Assembly (NCBI GenBank): GCA_033344915.1
Contig: JAWPML010000001.1
Coordinates: forward strand, 3,305,736 to 3,369,735
Origin: Acidimicrobiales bacterium
Lineage (GTDB): Bacteria; Actinomycetota; Acidimicrobiia; Acidimicrobiales; Aldehydirespiratoraceae
Direction of reading: 5' to 3'
Length of the DNA: 64,000 nt
How positions within the stretch are numbered: position 1 is the stretch's first letter; every line of letters starts with the position of its first letter. The position numbers and the translations under genes were made by a program. Shown here in pieces: positions 2,696 to 43,839 of the stretch. The notes under the pieces are model-generated. The model worked only from the letters and a program-made list of their open reading frames with translations. It was not told where the DNA came from and searched no databases.

Positions 2696-4266
2696 CAGCC
2701 GCCCACGACCTCACATCCGGTCTGGATGCAGTTGTTGAGGGACTCGACGACCGCCGGGTCGGTGATCTCGAAGATCAGGCCGGGAGCGACGCCGAAGAGC
2801 AGGATGAGGACCAGGAACGGCGTCCACGCGATCCACTCGATGGTGGACACGTCGGTGATCTCGGGATCGTCGGCGAACTCCTCCGACGGCTCGCCCATGG
2901 CGGTGCGCTGGAGCAGCCACAGGAGGTAGCCGGCGGCGAGCACGGTGCCGATGGCCGCGACGACCATGTAGCCGCGGAAGGTCTCCTCGGGGATGCCGGC
3001 GGCCGGGTTGTAGGCCGAGAGGATCGCCGGGAACTCGCCCCAGAAGCCGGCCAGGCCGGGCAGGCCGAGGGAGGCCATGGCGCAGAAGCCGAGGATCCAC
3101 CCGAGCTTGGGTGCCTGCACGAGCATGCCGCCGAGGCGGTTGATCTCGAGGGTGTGGTAGCGCTCCTTCACCGACCCGGCGATGAAGAAGAGCATGCCGG
3201 TGATGAGACCGTGGGCGACCATGCCGAAGATGGCCGCGTTGATGCCGAAGTCGGTCAGGGTGGCGATGCCGAGCATCACGAAGCCCATGTGGGCCACCGA
3301 CGAGAAGGCGATCAGGCGCTTCATGTCGGTCTGGGCCAGACAGCCGAGGGCGCCGTAGATGATGCCGATGACGGCGAGGAGACCGATCCAGGGAGCCCAC
3401 GCCTCGGCGGCTTCGGGGAGCATCGGGATGGCGATGCGGATGAAGCCGTAGGTACCGAGCTTCAGCAGCACGGCGGCCAGGATGACCGAGCCCTGGGTTG
3501 GCGCCTGGGTATGGGCGTCCGGCAGCCAGGTGTGGAACGGGAACATCGGCACCTTCACGCCGAAGCCGATGAACATGCCGCCGAAGATGATCAGCTGCGT
3601 CGACCGGACGATCCCGTCACCGGCGCTCTCCGACAGCACCAGCATGTTGAACGTGTGCTCGCCCGTCGCCGGGTCGGTGGTCAGGAAGAACAGCGCCAGG
3701 AACGACAGCAGCATGAGCGCCGAACCGAAGAGCGTGTAGAGGAAGAACTTCAGCGAGGCGTAGCGGCGATCCTCGCCGCCCCAGACCGCGATCATGAAGA
3801 ACATCGGGAGCAGGACGACCTCGAAGAAGACGAAGAACAGGATCAGGTCCTGCGCCACGAAGGTGCCGATCATGCCCGTCTCGAGGATGAGCATGAGCAT
3901 CAGGAACGCCTTGGCGTTGCCCGGCTTCGGGATGTGGTCCCACGAGTAGATGAACACCAGCGGCATCACCAGCACGGTGAGACCGACGAGCGGGAGCGAC
4001 ATGCCGTCGACGCCCATCGTGTAGCCGGCGCCGATGACCTCGATCCAGTCCCAGTCGACGAACTGCTGGAGCGCGCCGGCGTTGTCGTAGTCGAACTCCA
4101 CGAACAAGAAGACGCCGAGGCCCAGCGTGACGAGTGACGTCAGCAACGCCAGACGCTTGTGGAGCTCCTCCTCATCCTGCGGGAACAACGCCATGACGAG
4201 CGCACCGGCGAGCGGCGCGAACACGAGGGCGGTGAGGAGCCAGTCGAGATCAGCGATGGTTTCCAT
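2695..4266 (-). CDS. nuoM: NADH-quinone oxidoreductase subunit M, 11-subunit complex I
   Basis: 523 residues, the antiporter-like subunit between NuoN and NuoL in the membrane arm. The motif FFEVVLLPMFFMIAVWGG carries the conserved helix-5 glutamate. VPMFPFHTWLPDAHTQAPT and the LIAFSSVAHMGFVMLGI segment are diagnostic of NuoM. The start METIADLDWL lies 27 bases after the nuoL stop. The C-terminal tail, after a WLLQR motif, ends in a short segment with two cysteines (NNCIQTGCEVVGG), a small oddity. Its family role is proton translocation driven by quinone reduction. Confidence 0.95.
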   Translation of the reverse strand: METIADLDWLLTALVFAPLAGALVMALFPQDEEELHKRLALLTSLVTLGLGVFLFVEFDYDNAGALQQFVDWDWIEVIGAGYTMGVDGMSLPLVGLTVLVMPLVFIYSWDHIPKPGNAKAFLMLMLILETGMIGTFVAQDLILFFVFFEVVLLPMFFMIAVWGGEDRRYASLKFFLYTLFGSALMLLSFLALFFLTTDPATGEHTFNMLVLSESAGDGIVRSTQLIIFGGMFIGFGVKVPMFPFHTWLPDAHTQAPTQGSVILAAVLLKLGTYGFIRIAIPMLPEAAEAWAPWIGLLAVIGIIYGALGCLAQTDMKRLIAFSSVAHMGFVMLGIATLTDFGINAAIFGMVAHGLITGMLFFIAGSVKERYHTLEINRLGGMLVQAPKLGWILGFCAMASLGLPGLAGFWGEFPAILSAYNPAAGIPEETFRGYMVVAAIGTVLAAGYLLWLLQRTAMGEPSEEFADDPEITDVSTIEWIAWTPFLVLILLFGVAPGLIFEITDPAVVESLNNCIQTGCEVVGG

Positions 4267-4293
4267 GAGACATGTTTCCTAGAGAGGAGATAC

Positions 4294-6690: not shown

Positions 6691-6694
6691 GCTG

Positions 6695-6994
6695 TCAGCC
6701 CTTCATGAGATCGGCCTCGGAGAGGTCGATGCTTCGGCGGTTGCGGTACATGAGCAGGACGATGGCGAGGCCGACCCCCACCTCGGCGGCGGCCACGGCG
6801 ATCGTGAAGAGGGCGAACACCTCGCCCCCGACGTCGTCGGTGAGCGCACCGAAGGCGACGAGGTTGATGTTCACGGCGTTGAGGATGAGTTCGACGGACA
6901 TCAGCACGAGCATGCCGTTCTTGCGGACGAGCACGCCGTAGACGCCGATGCAGAAGAGGGCGGCGGCGAGGAGGAGGAACTGGTTCAGCAGCAT
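6695..6994 (-). CDS. nuoK: NADH-quinone oxidoreductase subunit K, 11-subunit complex I
   Basis: 99 residues, three transmembrane helices, normal length. The two membrane glutamates of the proton path are visible in SVELILNAVNIN (helix 2) and AAAEVGVGLAI (helix 3). The gene lies 10 bases after nuoJ and 4 bases before nuoL, the usual JKL order. Related to the MrpC subunit of cation antiporters. Confidence 0.95.
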   Translation of the reverse strand: MLLNQFLLLAAALFCIGVYGVLVRKNGMLVLMSVELILNAVNINLVAFGALTDDVGGEVFALFTIAVAAAEVGVGLAIVLLMYRNRRSIDLSEADLMKG

Positions 6995-7004
6995 GGGAGG
7001 CCCC

Positions 7005-7538
7005 TCAGTCCTTTCTCGCCACGACGATCGCGCCGATCAGCGCCGCGAGGAGCAGCACCGAGACGGCTTCGAACGGGATGATGTACTGGGAGAAGATCGA
7101 GTCGCTGACCTCGGCGACGCCCTGGGGTGCGTCGATGACCAGTTCGTCGTCGCCGTAGGTGTCGACGAGAGCGACCGCCATGACGACGGCGAGCAGCACG
7201 CCCACGAGCGCGGCCATCGTCCGCTTCTCCTGGGCGACCGATTCGTCGTCACCCATGGACGCCCGCGTGAGCATCACACCGAAGAGGAACAACACGACCA
7301 CCGCACCGATGTAGACCAGCACCTGGGTGACGGCGACGAACTCGGAGCCGAGGAAGATGAACTGGGTGGCGACGCCGGCGAGCACGACCACGAGCCACAG
7401 GGCGGCGTGGACGACGTTCTTCGTGGTGACGACGCGCAGCGCGGCGACGATCATCACCGCCGCGATGACGCCCCAGAAGGAGTTGACGACCCACTTCTCG
7501 GTGTCGGTGAACTCCGCAGCAAGAAGGCTCCCGATCAT
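7005..7538 (-). CDS. nuoJ: NADH-quinone oxidoreductase subunit J, 11-subunit complex I
   Basis: 177 residues with five predicted helices. The [18 protein letters not shown] segment is the helix-3 region that carries the pi-bulge in known structures. The true start is the ATG at 7538, whose A is shared with the nuoI stop (ATGA overlap). A longer open frame upstream is only a shadow of nuoI. The loop [22 protein letters not shown] before the last helix is acidic. Neighbours and order are canonical. Confidence 0.93.
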
Positions 7539-8074
7539 GTGGGGGGTACCTTCAGCTTCTTCTGTTCGGACCCGGCCTCGTAGTCCTCGAATTCGGGCAC
7601 CGTCTCCATCCACTCCGACAGACGGGACTTGTCGTGGAGCAGATCGGCGATCCGGGGCTCGGAGTACTCGAACTCCGGGCTCCAGAACAGGGCTTCGAAC
7701 GGGCAGACCTCGACACAGATGCCGCAGTACATGCACAGCGCGAAGTCGATGTCGAAGCGGTCGAGCTTGTTGCGCTGACGGGGCTTGCCGCCGGCACGAC
7801 GGGGCGGCGCCTTCTCCTTGTGCCCCTCGATGTAGATGCACCAGTCCGGGCACTCACGCGCGCACAGCATGCACGAGGTGCAGTTCTCCTCGTGGAGCGC
7901 GATGACACCGCGGGCCCGGGTGGGCGGCGCTTCCTTCTCGTGGGGGTACTGCACCGTGGCCGCACCCTTGACCGGGTTCGGGATCGGCTTCTTGATGCCG
8001 TCGGGGAAGATCGTCCGCAGCATGGTGCCGCCGGTGACGCCGAGGCCCTTGATGAGTCCTGGTACCAAGCCCAT
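7535..8074 (-). CDS. nuoI: NADH-quinone oxidoreductase subunit I, 2x[4Fe-4S], 11-subunit complex I
   Basis: 179 residues, the ferredoxin-like subunit carrying clusters N6a and N6b. The motifs [12 protein letters not shown] and [12 protein letters not shown] give all eight cysteine ligands. A basic segment ([15 protein letters not shown]) separates them. In an enzyme without NuoEFG this is the most likely entry point for electrons from a soluble donor such as ferredoxin. That is inference from 11-subunit relatives. The C-terminal tail beyond the second cluster is about 55 residues long and charged. Confidence 0.94.
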
Positions 8075-8078
8075 GTGA

Positions 8079-9107
8079 TCAGATCCAGACCTTGAAGATC
8101 GCCGTGACGACGATGTTGAGCAGCGCGAGGGGGATGAGGAACTTCCAGGCGATCCGCTGGAGCTGGTCCTCGCGGAAACGAGGGAAGGTGAAGCGCACCC
8201 AGAACACGACGAATGTGAGGCCGATGACCTTCACGAACATCACGAGCGGGCCGAGGACGTTCATGATGTTGTCGTCCGGGTCGATGCCCGGGACGTACCA
8301 ACCGCCGAGGAAGAGCACGGCCGCGATCGCCGAGAAAACGCCGGCCGTCGCGAACTCGGCGATGAAGAAGAGCAGGAAGCGCATGCCCGAGTACTCGGTC
8401 ATGTAGCCCGACACGAGCTCCGATTCGGCGATCGGCATGTCGAAGGGCGTCTGGGTGAGCTCGGCCTGCATCGCCGTGAGGAACAAGAAGAAGGCGACGA
8501 ACTGGGTGAGGATGTAGGGGTTGCCGAGGCCGTCCCAGCCGAAGATCTCGCCGTTGGCCTGCTGGTAAACGATGCCCTGGAGGTTCATGGTGCCGGCCTG
8601 GATGACCACGCCGACGACGGCGAGGATCAGCGGCAGCTCGTAGGCGATCAGCTGACCGGTGGCGCGCAGGCCGCCGAGCAGGGAGTACTTGTTGGCCGAG
8701 CCCCAACCGGCCATGAGGATGCCGATGACCGAGACGGACGAGACGGCCATCGCCAGATAGATGCCGAGGTCGTTCTGGATGAACCAGGCGTCCGGGCCGC
8801 CCGGCAGGACGACCACGAGCAGGAAGGTCGAGGCGAGCACCACGAAGGGCGCGGCGGCGAAGACGACCTTGTCGGCCTTGCGGGGAACGATGTCCTCCTT
8901 CTGGAGGTGCTTGCCGACCTCGGCGAGCAGCTGCAGCGAGCCGAACGGGCCGGCTTCCATCGGACCGAGCCGGCTCTGCATGAACGAGACGAGCTTGAAG
9001 AGATGGAGCATCACGAGCGTGCCCGCGACGAGGATGACCGCGACGAGCCCGGCACCGACGCGGATACTGGTCTGCTGCCAGTAGGACAGTTCTGCGAGCA
9101 GGCTCAC
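8079..9107 (-). CDS. nuoH: NADH-quinone oxidoreductase subunit H, 11-subunit complex I
   Basis: 342 residues, the membrane subunit that forms most of the quinone tunnel. Recognisable segments are [33 protein letters not shown] with its acidic cluster, and [14 protein letters not shown]. The start is GTG at 9107, overlapping the nuoD stop by 4 bases (GTGA). An ATG further upstream lies inside nuoD and would add an unnatural Arg/His-rich leader. Confidence 0.93.
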
Positions 9108-10276
9108 CGGTCGATGTCCCCGAGGATGAAGTAGAGCGACCCGAGGATCGTGATGATGTCGGGCACGTAGACACCCTTGAGCAGCCACGGGGTGATCGAC
9201 ATGTTGTTGAACGACGCCGAGCGGATCTTGACCCGGTACGGGACGAGATCACCCTTCGAAACGACGTAGTAGCCCATCACGCCGAGCGGGTTCTCGGTCT
9301 CGACGAAGGCCTCGCCGGCGGGGACCTTGATGATGCGGGGCACCTTGGCCATGATCGGGCCGGCGGGGATCCCGTCGAGCAGTTGGTCGACGATCTTCGT
9401 GGCTTCGCGGGTTTCCTGGAGACGGACCCAGAAGCGGCTGAACGAGTCACCGTCGGGGTGGGTCCACACCTTCCAGTCGACCTGGTCGTAGGCGAGGCCG
9501 CAGGGGTTGTCGCGGCGGACGTCCCAGTCCACGCCGGATCCACGGATATTCGCGCCGGACAGGCCGTAGCTGAGCCCGACGTCGGCCGGGATCACCCCGA
9601 TGCCGCGGGTGCGGGCCTGGAAGATCTCGTTGCCCATGACGAGGGTCTCGATCTCGTCACAGAAGGCCCGCATCTTCTTCATGACCTGCTTGGTCTCGGC
9701 GACCCAGCCGGCCGGCAGGTCGTCCTTGAGTCCGCCGATGCGGTCGAAGTTCGGGTGGAAGCGGCCGCCGGTCGCTCCCTCGATCTGGTTGAGGATGTGC
9801 TCGCGGTCGCGGAAGGCGAAGAACACCGGGGTGACGGCGCCGACCTGCACGGCCATGTCGCCGAGAAACAGCACCACGTTGGCGATGCGGCTCATCTCGA
9901 ACAGAATCGTGCGGATCCACTGGGCCCGGGGCGGCGCCTCGACCTCCATCAGCCGCTCGGCCGCGAGGATGAACGGCACCTCGTTGGCGAAGCTGCCGAG
10001 CCAGTCGATGCGGTTGATGAGGGTGGTCACCTGCGGGTAGGTGCGTACCTCGGAGAGCTTCTCGTAGCCCCGGTGCATGTAGCCCATCACCGGGTCGGCG
10101 GCGATGACCTGCTCGCCGTCGAGCTTGGCGACGATCCGCAGAGTGCCGTGGGTGGCCGGGTGCTGGGGACCGATGTTGAGGGTCATGCCCTCGGTCTCGA
10201 GCTCCAGGTTCACGCGTGCGTCGGCCGCCTGGGCCGCGATGTAGGACAGCTGCTGGCGATCGGAGATGTCAGTCAC
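9104..10276 (-). CDS. nuoD: NADH-quinone oxidoreductase subunit D, 11-subunit complex I, variant quinone site
   Basis: 390 residues, the 49-kDa-type subunit that shapes the quinone headgroup site. [12 protein letters not shown] supplies the conserved histidine (His43). [10 protein letters not shown] keeps the arginine (Arg69) equivalent to the one methylated in mitochondrial NDUFS2. The usual tyrosine of the R-[IL]-D-Y motif is a tryptophan here (RIDW, residue 92; codon at 10001-10003). The NuoD of the other cluster keeps tyrosine. The start overlaps the nuoC stop by 4 bases. Confidence 0.95.
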
Positions 10277-10986
10277 GGTTCACCTCCGGCATCCGCGGAC
10301 GTGGATGCGTCGTCCTCGTCGTCGTCGCCGGGCATGGCCTCGACGTCGACGATGCCGGGCCACGGCTTCACCCGGCGGGCCAGCAGCGGATAGTCCTTGC
10401 GCAGCGGGTTCCCCTCGAACTCGCCGGGCAGGTAGATGTGGCGCAGGCCGGGATGCCCGTCGAACGAGATGCCGAACATCTCCCATGCCTCGCGCTCGTG
10501 CCAGTTCGCCCCGCCGTAGGTGGCGACCCAGCTGGGAACGGTGAGCGAGTCGTCGGGCACATCGGCCTTCACCGTGACGGCGAGATGGTTGACGATGTCG
10601 TTGACGCGGGCGAACACCTGGAACCGGGTGTCGCCCCCGGTGGTGCCGGTCTCAATGGTCGAGTCGATCTCCGACTTCTCGTCGTGCCCGAGCGTGAGGT
10701 CGACCTGGGAGTCCATGTCGCGCCCGAACGGCGACGGCATCCAGTCGATGGCGCTGAGGAAGTTGAAGTAGGCGAAGCCCATGCCGGTTCGCAGGAACGC
10801 GCCGGTGTCACCCCAGGCCTCGGGCGTCACCCGGACGGTGAGATCGATCCCGGGCTCGAGGTGGCTGGCGACGAACGCGTCGCCGAGTTCGGCCGTGAGC
10901 TGCTCGACGACCGCTTCACGAGCGGTGTCGGGCTCCGCTGCCTCTTCCACGACCTCGACGTCGGTCGAGGCATCATTCGACGACAA
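10273..10986 (-). CDS. nuoC: NADH-quinone oxidoreductase subunit C, 11-subunit complex I
   Basis: About 237 residues of the 30-kDa family. The signature [20 protein letters not shown] followed by [10 protein letters not shown] is clear. The ends are unusual: an acidic N-terminus and a C-terminal tail [14 protein letters not shown]. The start is uncertain. A GGAAGG ribosome-binding site lies 9 bases before TTG at 10986, whereas the GTG at 10995 has no spacing from it. Both starts lie inside the nuoB end. No ATG is available in this frame in the right place. Confidence 0.88.
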
Positions 10987-11473
10987 TTGCCTCACCCTTC
11001 CAACGCTCGGCCATGTCCTCGTTCTGGATGCGTTCCTGGAGCAGCACGATGCCCTCGAGCAGTGCTTCGGGGCGGGGCGGGCAGCCCGGCACGTAGACGT
11101 CGACGGGGATGATCTGGTCGACACCCTTGGTGACGGAGTAGCTGTCCCAGTACGGCCCGCCGCAGTTGGCGCAGGACCCCATCGAGATCACGTACTTCGG
11201 CTCCGGCATCTGCTCGTAGAGACGACGCACGGCCGGGGCCATCTTGTCGGTGACGGTGCCGGACACGACCACGAGGTCGGTCTGGCGGGGGCTCGCCGGC
11301 AGCGGGATCACGCCGAGGCGCATCACGTCGTAGCGAGCGGAGCCGAACGCGGCGCCCATCTCGATCGCGCAACACGCGAGACCCCACTGATACACCCAGA
11401 GGCTGTACTTGCGGCTCATGTTGAGCAGCGAGGTGAGCGGTTGCGGGATCTTCCCGGATTCGACGAGACCCAT
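10973..11473 (-). CDS. nuoB: NADH-quinone oxidoreductase subunit B, cluster N2, 11-subunit complex I
   Basis: 166 residues. The N2 [4Fe-4S] ligands are visible: the tandem cysteines in GLACCAIEM, the cysteine in [10 protein letters not shown] and the one in VPGCPPRPE. The second cysteine in CANC is extra compared with the usual CANS or CASS. The ATG at 11473 shares one base with the nuoA stop. The longer open frame upstream is a shadow of nuoA. The protein passes electrons to the quinone at the NuoD interface. Confidence 0.94.
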
Positions 11474-11904
11474 CAGACCCACCTGAGCATTCCCTTGCGC
11501 CAGGCGTAGAGCAGCCCGAGCAGCAAGATGTAGATGAAGATCGCCATTTCGATCAGACCGAAGAGCTCGTAGGCCTCGAGCCGGGTGGCCCAGGGGAAGA
11601 TGAACACGGCCTCGACGTCGAACATGACGAAGAGCAGGGCGAAGATGTAGTAGCGGATGTTCGACTGCGACCACATGTCACCGGTCGGGTCCACGCCGGA
11701 TTCGTAGGTCTCCAGCTTCTGCACGGTCGGATTCGAGGGTCGCAGAATGCGCCCGATGCCGAGCAGGACGGCAACGAGAACGACGGCGACGAGACCGAAG
11801 ATCCCGACGGTGAGGTAACTACGGAGAAAATCCGACACGAAGGGAGAGCCTAGCGATCGTGTTTCGGGCAGAACAAAGCCGGGGAACATTGTCTGAACGA
11901 CCAT
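11473..11904 (-). CDS. nuoA: NADH-quinone oxidoreductase subunit A, 11-subunit complex I
   Basis: Three-helix membrane subunit, first gene of the operon. The conserved acidic pair is in [13 protein letters not shown]. From ATG at 11904 it has 143 residues. A GTG at 11838 would give 121 residues ([15 protein letters not shown]), closer to the family length, so the first 22 residues may be untranslated. Upstream is an 89-base divergent gap shared with the acetyltransferase gene. Confidence 0.92.
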
Positions 11905-23806: not shown

Positions 23807-26139
23807 CAGACGTTCGCCCTCGTGAGGAACCACACGATCAGCGCGACCGCGCCGACCCCGACCATGGCGGCGTAGGACCGCACCAGACCCGACTGGAGGC
23901 GGCGCAGCTGGCCGCCGCCGCTCCGCACGAGCCGACCGACGCCGTTGACGGCGCCGTCCACGAACGTCGCATCGAACCAGGCGACCAGATCGAAGCTCTT
24001 GCGGCCCGGGCCACCCATGAAGTCACTGATCGACTCGTCGTAGCGCCAGGCCCGGGCGAGGATCGGGAGCTCGATCCGCTTGGCCGGGAATCGGCCCTGG
24101 AGGTAGACGGCAACGGCGGCCGCGATGCCGATCACCCCGCCGATGACGGCCACGACGGCGAGCGCCCACTTCGTGCCCGCACCGCTGGTGAGGTGGGCCG
24201 GATGGACGAGCGTCGGTTCGAGCCAGTGGTCGAGGAAGTGGAGATCGCTGGTGAACGGCAGGTTCATGACGCCGGCCACGATCGCCGCGCCGGCGAGCAC
24301 GACGAGCGGGACGGTCATCTGCCAGGGCGACTCGTGCGGGTGGTACTCGCGGCGGGCCCGCGCCGCGTCGGGCAGGTCTTCGTCGGCGATGTCGCCGAGG
24401 GCCGGCTCGCTGAAGAGGTCGAACTCGATCGTGCCCGCGCCCATCGACGACGCCGCGACGGTGGCCACCTGGGCCTCGGCCGTACGCACGGCATCGCGAG
24501 CGGCCTCCACGGCGACGGTCGCCTCGTCGGCGGCGGCCTGTGCCTTGGCGACACCGTCCTTCGCCTTGTCGAGGTTCTTCGTGGCCTTGTCGACGGCCTT
24601 CTCGTCGGACGAGTCGACCTCGGCCATCTCCGTCTCGCGGGTGGCCAGCTTCTCCTGGGCCTTCGCGAGCTTCTCTTGTGCCTTCACCACCGCGTCCTCG
24701 GCACCACCGATGCCCGCCTCGGCTTCGGCGACCGCGGCCTCGGCGGCGGCGACCTTCGCCGCGTTCAGCTGCTCGACCTCCTCGGCCCGCACGTCGGCGT
24801 AGCGATAGCGGCCGAAGAAGGTCATGAACACCTGACGGCTCATGTAGAAGGCCGTGAGAATCGCGGTGACGAGGCCGACGAGCCACAGACCGATGTTGTC
24901 TTCCCAGGCGAAGGCGAGGATCTCGTCCTTCGACCAGAAACCGGCGAACGGCGGCACGCCGGCGATGGCGAGCCAGCCGATGATGAAGGTGATCGACGTG
25001 ATCGGCATCAACTTCCGCAGGGCGCCGTAGTGGCGCATGTCCTGGTCCCCGTCCATACCGTGGATGACGGATCCGGAACCGAGGAACAACAACGCCTTGA
25101 AGAAGGCGTGGGTGACCATGTGGAAGATGGCAGCCACGTAGGCGCCGGTGCCGATGGCCAGGAACATGTAGCCGAGCTGGCTCACCGTCGAATAGGCGAG
25201 CACCTTCTTGATGTCGTTCTGGGCGACGGCGATCGTCGCGGCGAACAGCGCGGTTGCCGCGCCAACCCACGCGATCGTGGTGGGCGCCCACGCGGCGGAC
25301 ACGTCGATGACGCCGTTCATGCGGGTGAGCAGGTACACGCCCGAGGTGACCATCGTCGCGGCATGGATGAGCGCGGACACGGGGGTCGGGCCGGCCATGG
25401 CGTCGGGCAACCAGACGAACAAGGGGATCTGGGCGCTCTTGCCGGCCGCGCCGACGAGCAGGAGGATCGTGATCGCCGTGGCGGTCGACTCGGCGAGACC
25501 GGCGTCGGCCGCGAAGATGTCGACGTACTGGATGCTCCCGATCGTCGTGAACGTCAGGAACATCGCGACCATGAAGCCCCAGTCACCGATGCGGTTGGTG
25601 ACGAACGCCTTCTTGCCGGCCGTCGCGTTCGCCTCCTCGGTGAACCAGAAGGAGATCAGGAAGTACGAGCAGGCGCCGACGCCCTCCCAACCGAGGAAGG
25701 TGAGCAGCATGTTGTCACCGAGCACGAGCATGAGCATCGAGAAGGCGAAGAGGTTCAGGTAGAGGAAGAACTTCGAGAACTTCGGATCCCCGTGCATGTA
25801 CCCGATCGAGTACAGGTGGATCAGCGCGCCGACGCCGGTGATGAACAGGGTCATCGTGACCGACAGCGGGTCGACGAGGAAGCCGACGTCGACCTGGAAG
25901 TCGCCGGCCGGCACCCACTCGAACAGCGTCTGCACGAACTGGCGGTCGTTGTCGGCATCGCCGTGAGCATCCAGGCCGAGGAGCCCGACGTAGACGACGA
26001 CCGACGAGACGAACGAGCCGCCCATCGCGAGCGTCGCGAGCCAGCCCGCGCGGGACTCGCCGAGCTTCGGCCCCGCGAGCAGGAGCACGACGAACCCGGC
26101 CAGGGGGAACGCGGGGATCAGCCAGACTGCTTCGACCAT
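23806..26139 (-). CDS. nuoL: NADH-quinone oxidoreductase subunit L, 14-subunit complex I, with large coiled-coil insert
   Basis: 777 residues. The core is canonical: GWEGVGACSYFLISFWF, VTNRIGDWG, VWLPDAMAGPTPVSALIHAATMV and VLAYSTVSQLGYM. After FMTFFGRYRY at about 446, where most NuoL proteins have a short loop, there is an Ala/Glu/Lys-rich stretch at 451-563 (DNA 24451-24789) with continuous heptad character and no helix breaker except near 507-512. An acidic linker follows and the normal chain resumes at HESPWQM (602). The insert should be a helical hairpin in the cytoplasm or periplasm, depending on topology. Confidence 0.94.
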   Translation of the reverse strand: MVEAVWLIPAFPLAGFVVLLLAGPKLGESRAGWLATLAMGGSFVSSVVVYVGLLGLDAHGDADNDRQFVQTLFEWVPAGDFQVDVGFLVDPLSVTMTLFITGVGALIHLYSIGYMHGDPKFSKFFLYLNLFAFSMLMLVLGDNMLLTFLGWEGVGACSYFLISFWFTEEANATAGKKAFVTNRIGDWGFMVAMFLTFTTIGSIQYVDIFAADAGLAESTATAITILLLVGAAGKSAQIPLFVWLPDAMAGPTPVSALIHAATMVTSGVYLLTRMNGVIDVSAAWAPTTIAWVGAATALFAATIAVAQNDIKKVLAYSTVSQLGYMFLAIGTGAYVAAIFHMVTHAFFKALLFLGSGSVIHGMDGDQDMRHYGALRKLMPITSITFIIGWLAIAGVPPFAGFWSKDEILAFAWEDNIGLWLVGLVTAILTAFYMSRQVFMTFFGRYRYADVRAEEVEQLNAAKVAAAEAAVAEAEAGIGGAEDAVVKAQEKLAKAQEKLATRETEMAEVDSSDEKAVDKATKNLDKAKDGVAKAQAAADEATVAVEAARDAVRTAEAQVATVAASSMGAGTIEFDLFSEPALGDIADEDLPDAARARREYHPHESPWQMTVPLVVLAGAAIVAGVMNLPFTSDLHFLDHWLEPTLVHPAHLTSGAGTKWALAVVAVIGGVIGIAAAVAVYLQGRFPAKRIELPILARAWRYDESISDFMGGPGRKSFDLVAWFDATFVDGAVNGVGRLVRSGGGQLRRLQSGLVRSYAAMVGVGAVALIVWFLTRANV

Positions 26140-36548: not shown

Positions 36549-37691
36549 CTAGCCCGCCGCGGCGAACTCGGCTCGCCTGGCCATCTCGACCTTGTCGCGT
36601 TCGTGGAGCATGTAGCAGAACGCCAGGAAGATCAGCAGCGAACCGATGGTGACGAGGGCCGGCAGCTGGCGCAGGTTGCCGAGGTCCCGGACCATGACCA
36701 CCGAGATCACGGGCTCGTTCTCGTCGGCGATCGGCCGCTTGGGCGCGGTGCCGGGCAGGTTGTCGATCGATTCCGCGGTGACGGCCTGCACCTGGATCAT
36801 GGCGTAGCCGGTCGGATGCTTGATGGTGAGCGCGGAGCGGACCTGCGTCCAGATGCGGTCCCATCGGTTCGGGTCCTCCGGGAGGCCTTCCTTGCCACCG
36901 GAGGCGTAGCCGTTGAGGATCTTGAACTCCGTCTGGCTGTCGAAGGAGAACTCGCCGCTCTCGAGCAGGAAGGCGATCGCCGAGGCCTGGGCTTCACCCA
37001 TCTCGGCGGTGGACAGCAGCCGCCACTCGCCGAGCGCCTCGAGGTCGTCGGGCACGATGTGCGGCGCCACGGCCGCCAACTCCGACAGTGTCGTCTCGCT
37101 GTTCTTCTCGTTCTCCGCGGCGAGGAGCAGCTCGATCTCCGTCGCGTCGAGACCGTCGGTCTGGTCGCCGGTGAGCAGGTCCTCGGTGAGCACACCGAAG
37201 TCGAGCCAGGCCACGCCGAAGTCGATGATGTCCTGGTCGCCGGACTCGGACATCGCCTGGACGTCGACCGAGAGGTCACCGTCGATGATCTCGACGTACT
37301 CCGCGTTGGTCTCGCTCAGTTCGGCGGCCTTGGCCAGCAGGACCTCCTGCGCCGTCGGCAGATCGGCCGAACGGAGGGTCTCCGCGACATCGTTCTCCGC
37401 GAAGTCCAGGTGGGCACCGGTCTCCTCGTTCTCCTCGACGATCTCGAGCTCGACGAAGACGGGGCGATCGCCCGCGTAGCCGATGCCGTAGATCCACCAG
37501 ACACTGCCCATGATCGCCATCCAGCCGAAGAAGCCGGCGCCGGCGATGAGGGTGCCGAGGCGGGTGCCCGAGTTGGTGGCGAGCAGGAGCCACACCGAGC
37601 CCATGAGGACGACGACGCCCGTGAGGACGGCGAGGAAGCCGCGGATTTCAGGGTCCCAGGCGAGACCGGCGATGAGGTCGATCATCTGCAT
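36549..37691 (-). CDS. Unknown membrane protein with large extracytoplasmic domain, between bc and nuo genes
   Basis: 380 residues. Two N-terminal helices (about 17-37 and 44-68) and one near the C-terminus (about 342-361) flank a hydrophilic, acidic domain of about 270 residues. No heme-binding, Fe-S or enzyme motif is visible. The protein ends with a basic/charged tail (HERDKVEMARRAEF). The ATG shares one base with the cytochrome c stop; a second ATG two codons later is possible. Its position between a cytochrome bc operon and nuoA suggests a structural or assembly role. I do not recognise the family. Confidence 0.75.
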   Translation of the reverse strand: MQMIDLIAGLAWDPEIRGFLAVLTGVVVLMGSVWLLLATNSGTRLGTLIAGAGFFGWMAIMGSVWWIYGIGYAGDRPVFVELEIVEENEETGAHLDFAENDVAETLRSADLPTAQEVLLAKAAELSETNAEYVEIIDGDLSVDVQAMSESGDQDIIDFGVAWLDFGVLTEDLLTGDQTDGLDATEIELLLAAENEKNSETTLSELAAVAPHIVPDDLEALGEWRLLSTAEMGEAQASAIAFLLESGEFSFDSQTEFKILNGYASGGKEGLPEDPNRWDRIWTQVRSALTIKHPTGYAMIQVQAVTAESIDNLPGTAPKRPIADENEPVISVVMVRDLGNLRQLPALVTIGSLLIFLAFCYMLHERDKVEMARRAEFAAAG

Positions 37692-39190
37692 TACGGAAGG
37701 GTCCTCTCGAACGCGACGATCGCGTCGATCTGATCTGAGGTGAGCGTGGCCGGGTAGAAGAACTCGTCGTCGGTGCCGATCGACGGGCCGACCGCGTCGG
37801 TCTCGACTCGGGAACCGAAGCCGGGCATCTGACCGTTGCCGCCGGAGCCGCCCCGGCCGTAGGCGACGCCGATGGTCTGACCGGACTCGATGAACTGGGC
37901 GTGGGTGCGGGCGGTCTCGAACTGCTGGGTGGTCGACCCGCCGCGCAGGTTCGGGCCGAAGTAGCCGTCGCCCTGGACGTATTCGTCGAGCGGCGACTCG
38001 GTGGTGCCGTTGGCCCGTAGCGTGTAGCGCTCCGCGGCGTCGTAGCTGAAGCCGAACGTGTGGCAGCGGGCGCAGCTGTAGGTGGCGTTGGCGGCCGGGT
38101 TCGTGAAGAGGAACTCGCCGTACTTCCAGTAGGCCTCGACGTTGGGCACACCGCCGTCGGGATCGGACAGGAGCTCGAGGGTGGCCCAGCGCAGGGCATC
38201 ACCTTCGAGGGAGTCGTCGTCGTCGAGCGCCATCATCTCGGCCGCGACGCGGGCCCCCTCGGCCTCGGCCAGGAAGGCGACGGCCAGCGCGTCGATCTCT
38301 TCGCCCGCCGCTGCGTTGGCCTCGTTGAAGCGGTCGGTTGCGGCCGCGAGGGTGTCGCACAGGCCGGTCTCGTCCTCGTCGAGATCGGCGTCGCCACAGT
38401 CGATGTCGAGTGCTTCGACCGCGAGCGTCGCTTCGAGCTGGGCAGCCGATGCTTCGCGGACCTCGGTGAGTGCCGGGGAGACGTAGACGAACGCACCCGT
38501 GTCGTCGGTGCCGTCGACCACATACTCCTCGGCGCGCTGGAGCACGCCCGCCTCGACCTCGCTCGCGATGGTCTCGGCGTCGATCTGGATCGAGCGGAGG
38601 TAGTAGATGACCTCTTCGAGCTGCTGGTCCGTGAGCGGGCCACCACCACCGGCACCCCACGCGGGCATGACGCCGTTGCGGCCGAAGTTCAGGGTGTGGA
38701 GGACCTCGTCCTCGGAGAACCGCGAGAGCACGGTGTTGAGCGCGGGGGCCTTCCACACGACCTGGGCGATGAATCCACCGTCGTCCGTGGTCAGGGCGGT
38801 GCTGGTGGAGCCACCGGCACCGGCCGCGCCGTGGCACGAGACACACTGGGCACCTTCGATGTAGATGTCCTCGCCCCGGTTGGTGAAGATCCGGTCGATG
38901 TCCTTGTTGCGACCCTCTTCGCGACCCGGCTCACCGAGCCAGTAGAAGGGAAGCGCGATCGCGATGATCGTGAGCATCGCCAGGTTGGCGGCGAGCGCGA
39001 GGTCGAGACGACGACCCTCGAGGTCCTCGTCGCGCAGGGCGGGCGCGCGGTTCGCGGCCAGCTCGACCTCCGATCCGATCTCGGCCTTGGCCGCACGGAT
39101 GTTGAAGAAGAGGTAGACGAGCCCACCGATGAAGACGATCGCGAGAATCGCGAAGCCAATGGTTCGTTGTGTGGATGCAGCGAGCAGCAT
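37691..39190 (-). CDS. Membrane-anchored diheme cytochrome c of the bc complex
   Basis: 499 residues. Two helices (about 12-30 and 66-85) precede two c-type heme sites, CVSCH at 116-120 and CARCH at 373-377. Likely methionine ligands are in NGVMPAWG (175) and GNGQMPGFG. Between the two cytochrome domains is an acidic, probably helical stretch of about 140 residues containing a non-heme cysteine pair. It plays the part of cytochrome c1 or QcrC, taking electrons from the Rieske protein. It starts 51 bases after the Rieske stop. Confidence 0.88.
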   Translation of the reverse strand: MLLAASTQRTIGFAILAIVFIGGLVYLFFNIRAAKAEIGSEVELAANRAPALRDEDLEGRRLDLALAANLAMLTIIAIALPFYWLGEPGREEGRNKDIDRIFTNRGEDIYIEGAQCVSCHGAAGAGGSTSTALTTDDGGFIAQVVWKAPALNTVLSRFSEDEVLHTLNFGRNGVMPAWGAGGGGPLTDQQLEEVIYYLRSIQIDAETIASEVEAGVLQRAEEYVVDGTDDTGAFVYVSPALTEVREASAAQLEATLAVEALDIDCGDADLDEDETGLCDTLAAATDRFNEANAAAGEEIDALAVAFLAEAEGARVAAEMMALDDDDSLEGDALRWATLELLSDPDGGVPNVEAYWKYGEFLFTNPAANATYSCARCHTFGFSYDAAERYTLRANGTTESPLDEYVQGDGYFGPNLRGGSTTQQFETARTHAQFIESGQTIGVAYGRGGSGGNGQMPGFGSRVETDAVGPSIGTDDEFFYPATLTSDQIDAIVAFERTLP

Positions 39191-39241
39191 GCGCGTTGGA
39201 AGGGTTCTCGAGACTGTCTGGACGGGAACGGAGGGAGGTTA

Positions 39242-40120
39242 CTAGTGGGAGGCCTGACCGATGCAGTTGGGCCCTTCGGCTTCCTGACCGGTGGTGTTGG
39301 TCCCGATGGCGGGACCCTGGATGATGGTGCCGGTGTCGACGGTGAGGGAGCCGTCGGGACCGATGGTCATGGCGAAACGATCCATGCCGCGCGGGGCCGG
39401 GCCGCCGCGCTTCTCGCCGACCTGGTTGTACTGCGAGCCGTGGCACGGGCACTCGAACCACTGGGAGGTGGCACAGCTGGGCACGCGGCAACCGAGATGC
39501 GGGCACTTCTGGTAGAGGGCGACGATGCCGCCGTCGAGACCGAGCTGGAAGCCGGCGGTCATGCCGGAGAGCTCGGGTGCGGAGTAGACGTTGCTGGCCT
39601 TCTCGACGGCGCCGTTCGGGTATTCGGTGAGCCACATGCGTCCCTCGGCCTTGTAGAGGAAGCCGTTGCTGCTGCGGATCTGGCCGAGCAGGTCGCTCAC
39701 GAGACCGACCTTGATGGCCGAGCCGAAGCCGCCGCCGAGCTGGGGCCACAGGAAGGCGATGCACGCCGCGCCGAAGCTCGAGAGGCCGAGGGTGAACATC
39801 AACACGATCGACCGGTTGAAGAACTGCCGACGGGTGACGCCGATCTGCTCGGGGTCCGGCGGGACGTAGGGGGCGGGTGGCGCACCGCGTCCGGCGAGCT
39901 GGAGCTCCTTGGTTGCGGCCTTGCGCTCGAGCACCGCCGCCTGCTCGACCTGCTTGCCGGTGAGCTCGTCCTCGGCGCCCAGCGCGGGGCTGGCGGCGTC
40001 ACGGGCCCGGGTCTCTCGCGACAGCATGCCGACGGCATCGGTGTTCTGGCGCGCCCGCAGGCCGGCGCCGATCCCGATCAGGGCCAGCACGGCCAGCACG
40101 ACGATTGCAGCGATCAACAT
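39242..40120 (-). CDS. Rieske [2Fe-2S] protein of a menaquinol-cytochrome c reductase (QcrA/PetC-like)
   Basis: 292 residues. The cluster motifs are CPHLGC (206-211) and CPCHGS (224-229); the ligands are Cys206, His208, Cys224 and His227, with Cys211 and Cys226 for the disulfide. Helix 1 is at 2-20 and helix 2 at about 103-123. A twin-arginine TRRQFFNR stands directly before helix 2, as in actinobacterial Rieske proteins whose last helix is inserted by Tat. The intervening 80 residues are charged. Confidence 0.92.
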
Positions 40121-40198
40121 GTCAGTTGCCTCCTCGGGGGCTCATCCCCAGATTGGCTCCGGGCGTGAGCCCATACGCAGCGGTTCGGTGGTCGTTCA

Positions 40199-40972
40199 TC
40201 ACAGCTCGAAGAAGAGGCCGGCTTCCCAGGGGAAGACGAAGTTGAAGCCGGGACCCCGGAAGAACGAGCCGATCATCACGAGGACCGCCCAGAACATGAG
40301 GTGAATCGTCATTAACGACACCGCGAACTTGCGGTCCTCGGGCTTGTTGGACGGGTTCTTGTCGATGTAGGGGGCGAGGATCAGCAAGAAGATGCCGATG
40401 CCCGGAATGGTCACGCCGGCGACCATCGGGTGGAACATCGTGAGCAGTTCCTGCAGGCCGAGGAAGTACCAGGGTGCCTTCGACGGGTTCGGGGTCTCGT
40501 TGAAGTTCGCGAGCTCCAGCAGCGGGGCGTTGACGAAGATCGAGAAGATGAGGGTGAACGCGGTGATGAAGAGGGCGGCGGCGAACTCGATGACGAGCAG
40601 GTGGGGCCAGACGTGGACCTTGTCCTGCGGCATCGCCTTGACGTCCTGGATGGAGCCGGACTTGACGACGGTCAGGAGGCGCTGGGTGTGGCCACCGGGG
40701 CCGGTGGGCAGCGGACCGGCTGCGGCCGCAGCCGGGGCGGCGGCCGGCGCGGCGGTCTCGACCGCGGTGCCACCACCGTCGCCGCCGTCGGCCTTCGCCT
40801 TGGCGGCCTTCGAACGCTCGAGCAGGTGGGCGGGGATCTTCGACGCGGCTTCCTGCTGTTCGGCGGTCAACTCGGCTTCTTCGGCGGGCGCGGCATCGGA
40901 CGCCTTGGCGGCGGCGGCCTTCGCCCGCGCCTCCTCGGCCCGTTTGCGGAGATGTTCTGGGACTTCGGTCAT
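40199..40972 (-). CDS. petD: Cytochrome b C-terminal part / subunit IV with repeated PEHL-type N-terminal peptide
   Basis: 257 residues. The C-terminal 140 residues form three or four helices with PSKAPWYFLGLQELL, the Qo-site PEWY region in its APWY form. The N-terminal 95 residues are an unusual extension: EVPEHLRKRAEEARAKA (3-19) and KIPAHLLERSKAAKAKA (45-61) are two versions of one peptide, followed by an Ala/Pro linker. The divergent cytochrome c at 42994 begins with the same peptide. It lies 24 bases after the b6-like gene, so cytochrome b is split as in b6-type complexes. Confidence 0.9.
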   Translation of the reverse strand: MTEVPEHLRKRAEEARAKAAAAKASDAAPAEEAELTAEQQEAASKIPAHLLERSKAAKAKADGGDGGGTAVETAAPAAAPAAAAAGPLPTGPGGHTQRLLTVVKSGSIQDVKAMPQDKVHVWPHLLVIEFAAALFITAFTLIFSIFVNAPLLELANFNETPNPSKAPWYFLGLQELLTMFHPMVAGVTIPGIGIFLLILAPYIDKNPSNKPEDRKFAVSLMTIHLMFWAVLVMIGSFFRGPGFNFVFPWEAGLFFEL

Positions 40973-40996
40973 CGTTCCTCCTCGTCCAGCCCTGGC

Positions 40997-41794
40997 CTAC
41001 AGCGGACCCGAGATGCCGCCGTCCTTGCGCACCCGCCAGAAGTGGATCGCCATGAAGATGACGATCACGAACGGGAGCATGAGGACGTGCAACACGTACC
41101 ATCGCAACAACGTGTCCGTGCCGATCTCGACGCCGCCGAGGAGCACGAATCTGACCTGGTCGCCGAACACCGGTGTGTACCCCATCATGTTGGTGCCCAC
41201 CGTCACCGCCCAGAGTGCGAGCTGATCCCAGGGCAGCAGATAGCCGGTGAACGAGAGCAGCAGCGTGAGCGTGAGCAGGATCACGCCGATCACCCAGTTG
41301 AACTCGCGCGGCGGCTTGTAGGCGCCGTGGTAGAAGACGCGGGCCATGTGGAGGAACACGGTGAGCACCATGAGGTGCGCACCCCATCGATGCATGTTCC
41401 GTACGAGCAGCCCGAAGGTGACCGAGGTCTGCAGGGTGTAGATGTCGTCCCACGCCGCGGCGGCGGTGGGGCGGTAGAAGAACATCAGGAAGATGCCGGT
41501 GACCGTCAGCAGGATGAAGAGGAAGAAGCTGAGCCCGCCGAGACACAGCGTGTAGGAGACCTTGACCGCGTGACGCTTCACCTTCACCGGGTGGAGGTGG
41601 TACATCACCGAGTTCATGATGACGTAGGAGCGGTTACGGGGGCTGTCGGTGTAGCCCTTCCGGAAGATCGAGCCCGGACGGAAGATGGAGTTCCACGCCT
41701 GGCTGGAGACGATGTCGTCGCCGAGCTGGGCCGCGGAGTCCTGCAGCCGCTGCGGGAGGGGCTTCTTGATCTCGTCGTCGGTGTCGGTTGCCAT
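40997..41794 (-). CDS. petB: Cytochrome b6-type subunit with conserved heme-ci cysteine
   Basis: 265 residues. MHRWGAHLMVLTVFLHMARV supplies heme histidines 135 and 149. WYVLHVLMLPFVIVIFMAIHF supplies 236 and 251, with spacings of 14 and 15 as in cytochrome b6. The C-terminus GISGPL is b6-like. Cys84 in YTLCLGGLSFF aligns with the b6 cysteine that binds heme ci covalently. The protein should oxidise menaquinol at the outer site. It lies 41 bases after the ferredoxin stop. Confidence 0.93.
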   Translation of the reverse strand: MATDTDDEIKKPLPQRLQDSAAQLGDDIVSSQAWNSIFRPGSIFRKGYTDSPRNRSYVIMNSVMYHLHPVKVKRHAVKVSYTLCLGGLSFFLFILLTVTGIFLMFFYRPTAAAAWDDIYTLQTSVTFGLLVRNMHRWGAHLMVLTVFLHMARVFYHGAYKPPREFNWVIGVILLTLTLLLSFTGYLLPWDQLALWAVTVGTNMMGYTPVFGDQVRFVLLGGVEIGTDTLLRWYVLHVLMLPFVIVIFMAIHFWRVRKDGGISGPL

Positions 41795-41835
41795 GAGAGG
41801 TTCGCTTTGTCTGTCTGGTGTTGGTGGTCAGAGCC

Positions 41836-42252
41836 TCAGCCGAGGCGCATGCCGTATCCGTAGCCGTGGGAGTTGGTCCGCTGGTGGGCGTCGCCGGCCG
41901 CGGCGGGGTCGCCGATCTTGCCGAGGATGATCACACCGGTGGGACACCGATCGACGCAGAGCGCGCAACGGGTGCACACGTCGTCGTCGATGGTGAAGAT
42001 CACGTGGTCGTTCGGGTCGAGCCCGGGCTGCTCCGTGCCGATCGCCTCGTCGATGGCGTCGGGGCGCACCATGAAGATGCACTTCCACGGGCAGATGTCG
42101 ACGCAGCCCTCGCACATGATGCACTCGGACTGGTCGATGTGGATGAACTGCTTGGGCTTGACCGCCTGGGAGAGCCACGCCGCGTCCACTTCCTGGAGCA
42201 CGTAGTCGTCGCGGAACTCCGGCATCGGCGGGTTCGCATCGGTCGTGGTCAC
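41836..42252 (-). CDS. Ferredoxin-type protein with two [4Fe-4S] clusters in the bc operon
   Basis: 138 residues. CIMCEGCVDICP (cysteines 44, 47, 50, 54) and CTRCALCVDRCP (93, 96, 99, 103) are two complete 4Fe-4S motifs. An extra Cys58 (PWKC) follows the first. No signal peptide or helix is present, so it acts in the cytoplasm or at its membrane face. The GTG at 42252 overlaps the stop of the small membrane protein by 4 bases. A ferredoxin is not a standard part of bc complexes; together with its neighbour it may form an electron-input or side module. Confidence 0.88.
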   Translation of the reverse strand: MTTTDANPPMPEFRDDYVLQEVDAAWLSQAVKPKQFIHIDQSECIMCEGCVDICPWKCIFMVRPDAIDEAIGTEQPGLDPNDHVIFTIDDDVCTRCALCVDRCPTGVIILGKIGDPAAAGDAHQRTNSHGYGYGMRLG

Positions 42253-42701
42253 GACGACGAGCCCTCCTTCACCAGCGGACGGCCGAACGTGGAGCGGGCC
42301 GGCGCGGTCTCCTCCTGCGCCTTGCCCCGGTTCTGCCAGATCGACCAGAGGGCGATGTTGCCGCCCAGGACCACGCCGTAGATGACGACGGCGATGATGT
42401 GCTCGATGTGGAGGTAGTTGATCGTGATGGGGTTCCAGCCGTCCGCGGACTGGGGCTTCAGGATCCCGCCCGGCCCGTGGAAGAACTTGTCGGAGCGCCA
42501 GTTGAGCTCGTTCTCGGCCCACACCAGCCACTGATGGGGAACCACGCCGTAGGCCCAGAACAGCAGGAAGAACACGATGAACGAGCCCAGCATCGCCTCG
42601 CCCCAGGTGTGGGGTTGACCGACCGGGCGGCGCTTCGAGTACGCGACGATTCCACCGGTGATGGCGAGCATGATCAGGCTGGACAGTGTGAAGGCGACCA
42701 C
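42249..42701 (-). CDS. Unknown three-helix, histidine-bearing membrane protein, first gene of the bc-nuo run
   Basis: 150 residues from GTG at 42701, which has GGAG 6 bases upstream; a longer frame has no such site. Helices are at about 3-21, 37-54 and 99-122. Histidines 31, 56, 75, 98 and 101 lie at or near helix ends and could bind heme b, but this is speculation. WAYGVVPHQWLVWAENELNWR is a notable Trp-rich loop. It is translationally coupled to the ferredoxin. No known family recognised. Confidence 0.72.
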   Translation of the reverse strand: MVAFTLSSLIMLAITGGIVAYSKRRPVGQPHTWGEAMLGSFIVFFLLFWAYGVVPHQWLVWAENELNWRSDKFFHGPGGILKPQSADGWNPITINYLHIEHIIAVVIYGVVLGGNIALWSIWQNRGKAQEETAPARSTFGRPLVKEGSSS

Positions 42702-42993
42702 GGGGACTCCGGTGGAGAACTGGGGTAGACGGACGAGCTGAACAACACAGAATCCACGACTTCGTGAATCCACGCACAAGTGTAGACCCGAGGTGGCGCA
42801 CCACTCGGGTTGGCCGAAGGTTTACCACGGGAAAATGCGCGCGAACCCAATCCGGCGCCGCGGATTTCGCCCGGGGCCGACAAGTCCGTCTCCGAGTTGT
42901 TCGGACGTGCGACACTGCCTCTATCCTTCGAGCGGTCTGCGCTCGTTCAACGATCGACAGACCCATGTACTCGACCCCGCACCGGAGACGACG
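42702..42993. promoter_or_regulatory. Divergent control region of the bc-nuo run and the cytochrome c gene
   Basis: 292 bases without a gene. The half nearest the minus-strand operon holds GAATCCACG twice (42750-42758 and 42766-42774, 16 bases apart) and a Rex-like site at 42762-42779. On the plus side a GGAG lies 7 bases before the GTG at 42994. A possible plus-strand -10, TATCCT, occurs upstream but with poor spacing to a -35. Nothing else stands out. Confidence 0.5.
42762..42779 (-). promoter_or_regulatory. Candidate Rex operator in front of the bc-nuo run
   Basis: On the minus strand the site reads TTGTGCGTGGATTCACGA, which matches TTGTGA-N6-TCACAA at 10 of 12 positions. The right half TCACGA is identical to that of the site in front of rex in this window. 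It is 61-78 bases upstream of the first start codon, a reasonable promoter position. It could be chance; no other copy tests it here. Confidence 0.45.
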
Positions 42994-43839
42994 GTGACCG
43001 AAGTTCCCGAGCACCTTCTCAAGAAGGCCGCAGAAGCCCGTGCCCGCCTCAGCGGCGAAGAGGGCGACGCCTCGTCCGCGGACGCGCCGGCGGCCGAGGC
43101 TGCTCCCGCGTCAGCGGCGCCCGTTCCCGCGGCGGCGGCCGTGCCCGCCGAGCCGGAGCCCGAGCCAGAGCCGATTCCCGACACCCCGATGGTCGCGGCC
43201 GCCAAGGCCCGCAAGACCATCCCCGTCTGGGTCATGCCCGTGCTGCTCTTCCTGCCGATCTGGGCGATCTACTACGTCGGCTACCTCGAGAACCCGCCGA
43301 CCACCGGCGGCTTCGCCTTCGAGGGCGAAGAGGTCTACACCGCCAACTGCGCGGGCTGCCACGGTGGCGGCGGAGGCGGCGGAAGCGGCCGGGTCCTCAA
43401 CGGCGGCGAGGTGCTGCTCACCTTCCCGGTCTACGAGTCCGGCGACGCCTACGACGGCCTCGCCGGTCACATCGGCTGGGTCGCCAACGGCTCCGCCGGC
43501 ACCGAGGCCGCCGAGGGCACCAACCTCTATGGCGACCCCGACCGCCCGGGCGGCCAGCGCACGGTCGGTTCGTTCGGCTCGAGCATGGGTGCCTTCGCCA
43601 GCAGCCTCTCGGTCGAGGAGCTCGCCGCCTCGGTGTTCCACGAGCGCTCCCAGTTCGGTGGCGACCAGATCGACGCCGACGCCATCGCCGAAGAACTCGA
43701 GGTGCTCGAGGAGTTCGTCCACGTCGCCGAGGAAGAGGGCATCGAGAATCTCGGCGGCCTCACCGTCGCCGAGATCCACGACCTGCTCCAGCAGGCTCGC
43801 GGTGAGTCCGGCGGCGGCAACGAGACGGCCTCCGAGTAG
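42994..43839 (+). CDS. Membrane-anchored monoheme cytochrome c with PEHL-type N-terminal peptide
   Basis: 281 residues from GTG at 42994 (GGAG 7 bases upstream). It starts EVPEHLLKKAAEARARL, nearly the same peptide as in the subunit-IV protein. An Ala/Pro/Glu linker and one helix at about 76-95 follow. The heme site CAGCH at 119-123 is followed by a poly-glycine run, and Met198 (SSMGAF) is a likely ligand. It is divergent from the bc-nuo run and probably carries electrons from the bc complex to an oxidase; the oxidase genes are not in this window. Confidence 0.88.
   Translation: MTEVPEHLLKKAAEARARLSGEEGDASSADAPAAEAAPASAAPVPAAAAVPAEPEPEPEPIPDTPMVAAAKARKTIPVWVMPVLLFLPIWAIYYVGYLENPPTTGGFAFEGEEVYTANCAGCHGGGGGGGSGRVLNGGEVLLTFPVYESGDAYDGLAGHIGWVANGSAGTEAAEGTNLYGDPDRPGGQRTVGSFGSSMGAFASSLSVEELAASVFHERSQFGGDQIDADAIAEELEVLEEFVHVAEEEGIENLGGLTVAEIHDLLQQARGESGGGNETASE

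Follow-up and report, generated by a model that had tools for sequence, protein, structure and literature searches.

A predicted coiled-coil hairpin on the cytoplasmic side of NuoL in an Acidimicrobiales complex I

The 14-subunit complex I encoded in the window (the whole 64,000-nucleotide stretch of DNA that was analysed) includes a NuoL in which two membrane helices, TM13 and TM14, are separated by a long, Ala- and Glu-rich insert. This raises the question of what such a segment forms, where it came from, and what it does on the distal proton-pumping subunit.

The NuoL gene and the anatomy of its insert

The identity of the subunit is well established by curated models: the protein scores 665.1 bits against TIGR01974 (NuoL/ND5, cut-off 407.5) and 683.6 bits against NF005141 (cut-off 556). 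Its best solved relative is 8e9g_L from M. smegmatis, and the AlphaFold2 model of the full protein matches solved structures with Z scores of 43.6-49.5 for the best 50 entries, which are complex I or its supercomplexes. The fold matches through to the C-terminal lateral helix (HL), with HL and TM16 (residues 752-776) predicted after TM15 (654-680), at low confidence in that region.

The best-matching Pfam and PDB stretches stop at residues 429-455 and restart at about 590-600, with weak, sub-threshold matches between. PF01010 (NdhF C-terminus) reaches 26.1 bits against a gathering score of 26.8, and its match begins only at the end of the insert. No Pfam domain scored above its cut-off over the insert, whether the whole protein or the insert alone was searched. 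DUF4407 (14.5 against a cut-off of 31.3 in the whole-protein search) and PUMA_CC (16.5 against 30.1 for the insert alone) were rejected, as were Flagellin_C, Golgin_A5, and others, which match the insert alone weakly and are largely helical families. A viral fold library returned nothing at an E value of 0.001 or below, and the best named entries were largely tape-measure or tail proteins. An assembly artefact or frameshift as the source was also rejected, the insert being present in independent named assemblies and in many genomes.

The window encodes a second NuoL of 798 residues (4294-6690, minus strand), likewise above the TIGR01974 cut-off, in an apparent second Nuo cluster at about 1202-11904. 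It has no TM13-TM14 insert, and carries about 75 His/Asp/Glu-rich residues near its N-terminus between the first membrane helices.

Table 1. Features of the window's nuoL gene and of its insert (residue numbers are those of NuoL)
Feature	Residues	Window coordinates	Strand	Basis
nuoL, NADH-quinone oxidoreductase subunit L of the 14-subunit complex	777 aa	23806..26139	-	curated models and solved relative
TM13, last helix before the insert	416-441	24817..24894	-	AlphaFold2 (416-441); hydropathy (416-434)
N-terminal base motif RYADVRAEE	446-454	24778..24804	-	shared across hairpin rows
Hairpin helix 1 (predicted)	452-507 (56 residues)	24619..24786	-	AlphaFold2; heptad a mainly Val/Ile/Leu, d mainly Ala
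Hairpin turn VDSSD (predicted)	508-512 (5 residues)	24604..24618	-	AlphaFold2
Hairpin helix 2 (predicted)	513-567 (55 residues)	24439..24603	-	AlphaFold2; period 3.50, p=0.0010
Acidic linker with conserved end LPxxxxxRRE	568-600	24340..24438	-	charge; end pattern
TM14, first helix past the insert	606-624	24268..24324	-	AlphaFold2
Lateral helix HL, main part (low confidence)	711-748	23896..24009	-	AlphaFold2

The insert comprises about 153 residues (446-598) in the TM13-TM14 interval. An earlier note, made from the sequence alone, had placed it at 24340-24804 on the minus strand; this is exact, and corresponds to NuoL residues 446-600. The length given there, about 115 residues, matches the hairpin, while the insert together with its linker comes to about 150. 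The same note had suggested a helical hairpin followed by an acidic linker, and structure prediction agrees with it: the segment is predicted to be helical rather than disordered (Table 1), and the linker has a net charge of -6 over residues 568-598. In the full-length AlphaFold2 model, built from a 55-row alignment, block pLDDT is 82-89 over residues 451-560 and 73-78 over 561-590. When the insert was modelled alone (39 rows) both helices were retained, with pLDDT of 94-97 around the tip and a pTM of 0.64. Residues 452-567 consist of 31% Ala, 14% Glu, 11% Val, and 9% Lys, and across 21 rows the net charge of the hairpin lies between -4 and -24. As an alpha helix rises 1.5 Å per residue, arms of 55 residues would make a hairpin about 8 nm long. 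The solved antiparallel hairpins 2ysu_B, 1ujw_B, 4dk0, and 9cfs_A superpose on it over 85-115 residues at 1.4-3.8 Å with Z scores of 10.6-12.3, though values of about 10-12 are usual for long helices and speak to shape only.

The heptad regularity that had been noted earlier is stronger than expected by chance. In 22 family rows compared with 2000 shuffles, the hydrophobic fraction of arm 1 has its peak at a period of 3.60 (p=0.0020); for arm 2 the peak is at 3.50 (p=0.0010). Taken by itself, the window sequence shows an arm 1 peak at 3.6 (p=0.012) and none at 3.5 (p=0.23), and its arm 2 peak is at 3.5 (p=0.0015). In the same 22 rows the hydrophobic fraction is 0.90-0.92 at heptad position a and 0.73-0.96 at d; as the heptad phase was set so that these two positions came out as hydrophobic as they could, the periodicity shuffle test is the sole control. 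Position d is mostly Ala and is the least variable. There is no clear second hydrophobic face: apart from a and d, the fraction reaches at most 0.54 in arm 1 (at b) and 0.46 in arm 2 (at g), mostly Ala in the window, which makes a four-helix oligomer less likely.

When inserts were aligned in 15 pairs, a clean deletion of the tip was seen once (L061 against L063, a single 48-residue gap across the tip with 91 of 115 residues identical), L012/L015 and L016/L001 differ in the linker only, and several alignments are ambiguous, such as those with L073, L034, and L125. Arm lengths located by an automatic tip finder, whose tip calls are visibly unreliable, were uncorrelated (rho -0.15, p 0.27). Taken together, the models predict that the insert is an Ala-packed antiparallel coiled-coil hairpin followed by an acidic linker.

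Distribution and probable history of the hairpin

A search of other actinobacterial NuoL proteins, which had been proposed earlier, found the insert in many close relatives. A NuoL-like N-terminal match was present at 266 loci, of which 255 had a measurable loop (80 hairpins, duplicates included), loop length being counted as the residues between query positions 445 and 599. Removal of identical cores, short cores, and one duplicate fragment left 222 distinct rows. Loop length in these is bimodal, with 165 rows at 3-76 residues, 57 at 106-192, and none at 77-105. Genomes of the window's own order account for 40 of the 57 hairpin rows; the other 17 come from records titled Acidimicrobiales, Acidimicrobiaceae, Acidimicrobiia, Candidatus Microthrix, or Actinomycetota.

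Of 148 genomes sampled evenly across the order, 141 had a NuoL match at 1e-115. At least 20 of them carry the hairpin, from families f1, f13, f18, f25, f28, f40, and f54, a count that excludes, among others, G072 and genes cut by contig ends. No hairpin was found outside the order among the NuoL genes measured in the phylum and class samples. The phylum sample matched at least 105 of 159 genomes at 1e-90, and loops were measured for the best NuoL at 30 top places (some inside the order) and for another 14 genomes, most of which have long frames; at least one long-frame gene, G327, is outside this set. The class sample matched 125 of 168 genomes at 1e-130, and the 20 long-frame genes of other orders measured there (G374 and shorter frames excluded) have loops of 5-75 residues. 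Beyond the phylum, the comparison was made through PDB chains only.

The hairpin-less loops are themselves diverse. Many other actinobacteria have a TM13-TM14 loop of 3-12 residues, and many genomes of the window's class have one of 13-76 residues that is acidic or His-rich. L269-L271, NuoL2-type paralogues from another actinobacterial class, have long His/Gly/Asp-rich loops at this site that are not helical-looking. Slippage seems to have expanded the loop in two related hairpin-less records, L084 and L088 (34 and 53 residues), where it consists mostly of repeated Ala-Gly-Asp or Ala-Val-Asp triplets.

A tree of the NuoL core without the loop, which is a tree of the gene and not of the species, requires at least seven changes of the hairpin label, both with 222 rows and with 81. 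Well-supported branches alone force four changes (222 rows) or three (81 rows). Constraining all 36 hairpin rows of the 81 to one clade was rejected (p-AU 1.15e-39, quick tree). The branch that holds every hairpin contains 99 rows and 57 hairpins in the 222-row tree (support 81), and 63 rows and 36 hairpins in the 81-row tree (support 99).

The base of the hairpin is informative about this scatter. Comparing the 57 hairpin rows with 104 short loops of at least 14 residues, base motif position 2 is aromatic in 57/57 against 18/104, and position 9 is Glu in 57/57 against 21/104. Trp at position 14, absent in the window itself, occurs in 49/57 against 0/104, and the linker end pattern [LM]..R in 54/57 against 0/104. 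Because hairpin bases share motifs that are mostly missing from short loops, a single origin followed by several losses seems likeliest, although several independent gains or transfer of the whole operon may instead explain the scatter. The short loops L072, L076-L079, L085, and L087 keep both ends, and look like remnants of collapsed hairpins.

Constraint and possible roles

Median dN/dS values of the insert in four groups are 0.190, 0.204, 0.078, and 0.078, and those of the core in the respective groups are 0.108, 0.053, 0.058, and 0.091 (22 codon-aligned pairs). Residues 452-561 (insert positions 7-116) are indel-free in 24 of 25 family rows, some of them near-copies, with L030 lacking three residues. 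Identity to the window's insert falls as low as 0.37 in these rows. The low dN/dS and the near-absence of indels within the family argue that the insert is constrained, and by these comparisons it is real, inherited, and under selection.

Whole-loop length behaves differently. Between clades the loop that contains the hairpin varies nearly two-fold (106-192 residues), and when all row pairs are compared, hairpin loops keep their length no better than shorter ones do. For pairs with 75-80% core identity, the fraction of equal length is 0.18 among hairpins (181 pairs) and 0.78 among short loops (78 pairs), although the mean relative length difference is smaller for hairpins (0.050 against 0.095). 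Sequence entropy rises away from the tip (rho 0.35, 22 rows), with 10 of 116 circular shifts doing as well; among 15 representatives rho is 0.29, with 14 of 116 shifts as good. Conservation towards the tip does not pass the circular-shift control, and is only suggestive.

The side of the membrane can be assigned by homology. In E. coli NuoL, a lateral helix that runs along the cytoplasmic surface connects the two additional C-terminal membrane helices, according to the passage on this subunit in PMC3046159. With the lateral helix cytoplasmic, TM15 ends and TM14 starts in the cytoplasm, which would place the TM13-TM14 loop, and with it the hairpin, on the cytoplasmic side under standard topology.

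The best reading of these results is that the hairpin is a rigid cytoplasmic spacer or docking arm of complex I, to which we give a probability of about 0.48. Its repeated loss suggests that the hairpin is dispensable, and proton pumping presumably does not depend on it. An arm of this kind best fits a segment that appears dispensable yet constrained and cytoplasmic, with one hydrophobic face per helix and an acidic surface. The loop, often long and acidic in the order, probably expanded to a hairpin once within Acidimicrobiales, and would have been lost several times later. The conserved flanking motifs would fix the base of the hairpin to NuoL, and a rod of about 8 nm would extend from this distal end of the membrane arm into the cytoplasm and set a distance. 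The tip or the acidic surface may then contact a partner on the N side, whether another complex I, another membrane enzyme, or a soluble dehydrogenase. The nearly two-fold range of loop lengths speaks against a single, conserved partner at a constant distance. A fuller proposal, unlikely in so specific a form, is that Acidimicrobiales use an arm whose length is fixed within a family and re-tuned between families to tie complex I units together or to another N-side machine, by which bacteria lacking accessory subunits would form ordered respiratory assemblies through a core subunit.

The foremost alternative is that the insert is a weakly constrained ornament: a tolerated, Ala/Glu-rich expansion of the loop that by chance folded as a soluble coiled coil, with selection only keeping it folded and out of the way. 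The TM13-TM14 loop is an insertion hot spot, as its 3-12 and 13-76 residue forms and the long loops of L269-L271 attest, net acidity increases with length in hairpin and non-hairpin loops alike, and the hairpin appears to have been lost several times. Constraint can be read either way, in that the group medians of insert dN/dS are about equal to, and up to nearly four times, those of the core, but they lie well below 1. This, the indel-free alignment of residues 452-561 in nearly all family rows, and base motifs common to all clades make mere tolerance somewhat doubtful.

It is rather improbable that the hairpin instead lies along the cytoplasmic face over NuoL and NuoM, beside the lateral helix, as a brace stiffening the antiporter chain. 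The two elements are on the same side of the same subunit and no part is shared more widely than the base motifs, but a helix pair packed in this way is at odds with the absence of a clear second hydrophobic face and with the long, lower-confidence linker at one end.

The earlier note had named the cytochrome bc complex encoded in the same transcript as an example of a docking partner. The bc genes (36549-42779) do share the strand of a nuoA-like gene and lie directly upstream of it, about 10 bases away, but the linkage is equally common without a hairpin: bc and nuo lie within 20 kb in 21/27 hairpin genomes against 22/29 hairpin-less ones. The two are on different contigs in six genomes of each kind and unlinked in one hairpin-less genome. 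An N-terminal extension of the C-terminal half of the split cytochrome b, presumably cytoplasmic given cytochrome b topology, carries two copies of a motif in 22/25 hairpin and 23/27 hairpin-less genomes. Nor is it basic, its mean net charge being -1.0 in 24 readable hairpin genomes and -1.8 in 25 others. Docking to the bc complex gains no support from these comparisons, and is very unlikely. As a basic partner for the acidic hairpin the extension was rejected, being slightly acidic or neutral, with a net charge of -3 in the window.

The bc cluster (36549-42779, minus strand) encodes a 499-residue protein with cytochrome c domains, a Rieske protein, and cytochrome b split into two genes; its genes at 36549-37691 (380 residues) and 42249-42779 matched no Pfam family at an E value of 0.01. 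The motif, [VI]PxHL[LR]xRxxxA or alike, occurs after residues 3 and 45 of the C-terminal half of cytochrome b (40199-40972, minus strand) and once, after residue 70, in the adjoining divergent cytochrome-c-like gene (42793-43839, plus strand). Across 52 genomes, 45 have both copies in the extension, six have one by the pattern used, and one is unreadable.

That the hairpin serves to collect protons on an acidic surface, close to where they enter the NuoL channel from the cytoplasm, is hardly credible: protons do enter from the cytoplasm via NuoL and NuoM according to the passage on this in PMC10212512, and mean net charge is -16.6 in hairpin rows, with loops of 13-80 residues acidic too, but an 8 nm rod far exceeds the need, the charge is distributed over the whole rod, and His makes up 1% of hairpins against 8-11% of the 13-80-residue loops.

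Bacterial complex I is usually seen as a bare 14-subunit core, to which organelles add docking elements by way of accessory subunits. If the hairpin is indeed a spacer or docking arm, a long, selected cytoplasmic coiled coil within NuoL would offer a straightforward way of organising complex I. It would also be a single removable handle for testing whether that organisation matters. The capacity of the TM13-TM14 loop to accept large inserts is useful for tagging complex I.

Comparison with known systems

No published account of such a NuoL insert was found in the open-access literature searched, a scope outside which the structure papers of most solved NuoL chains lie. Five solved chains were compared by full alignment, and the TM13-TM14 loop is short or absent in three of them (M. 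smegmatis, T. thermophilus, and T. elongatus NdhF1). M. smegmatis NuoL (8e9g_L) closely resembles the window's protein (Z 49.5, rmsd 2.2 Å over 555 residues, 46% identity) but runs from TM13 into TM14 without an insert, its matched stretches stopping at 450 and restarting at 453. Paracoccus denitrificans NuoL (8qby_L, 703 residues) is likewise a lengthened bacterial NuoL, but it owes its length to the TM14-TM15 interval (about 515-577), and its TM13-TM14 loop is short.

Chloroplast NdhF, an orthologue, also has a longer N-side TM13-TM14 loop, of about 67 residues in 7eu3_F and about 78 in 9grx_F. This loop gave no alignment to the hairpin in sequence searches, and the likeness is one of site, judged from sequence only. 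Spinach NdhF helps bind photosystem I, mainly on the stromal side, and the passages of PMC12170339 on this contact do not credit the TM13-TM14 loop. In mitochondria, NDUFB3 with NDUFAB1-beta, NDUFB9, and NDUFB2 forms a matrix-side mass around TMH12/13/15 at the ND5 tip, as described in a passage of PMC8762328. Like the hairpin, these accessory subunits are extra N-side protein on the distal pump subunit; unlike it, they are separate proteins and not an insert of ND5, and that passage does not mention such a hairpin. The antiparallel coiled-coil hairpins of MacA and FliJ share the generic fold of the NuoL hairpin, a match by shape alone and not a family relation. The NuoL hairpin is a variant of a known subunit, and not a new kind of system.
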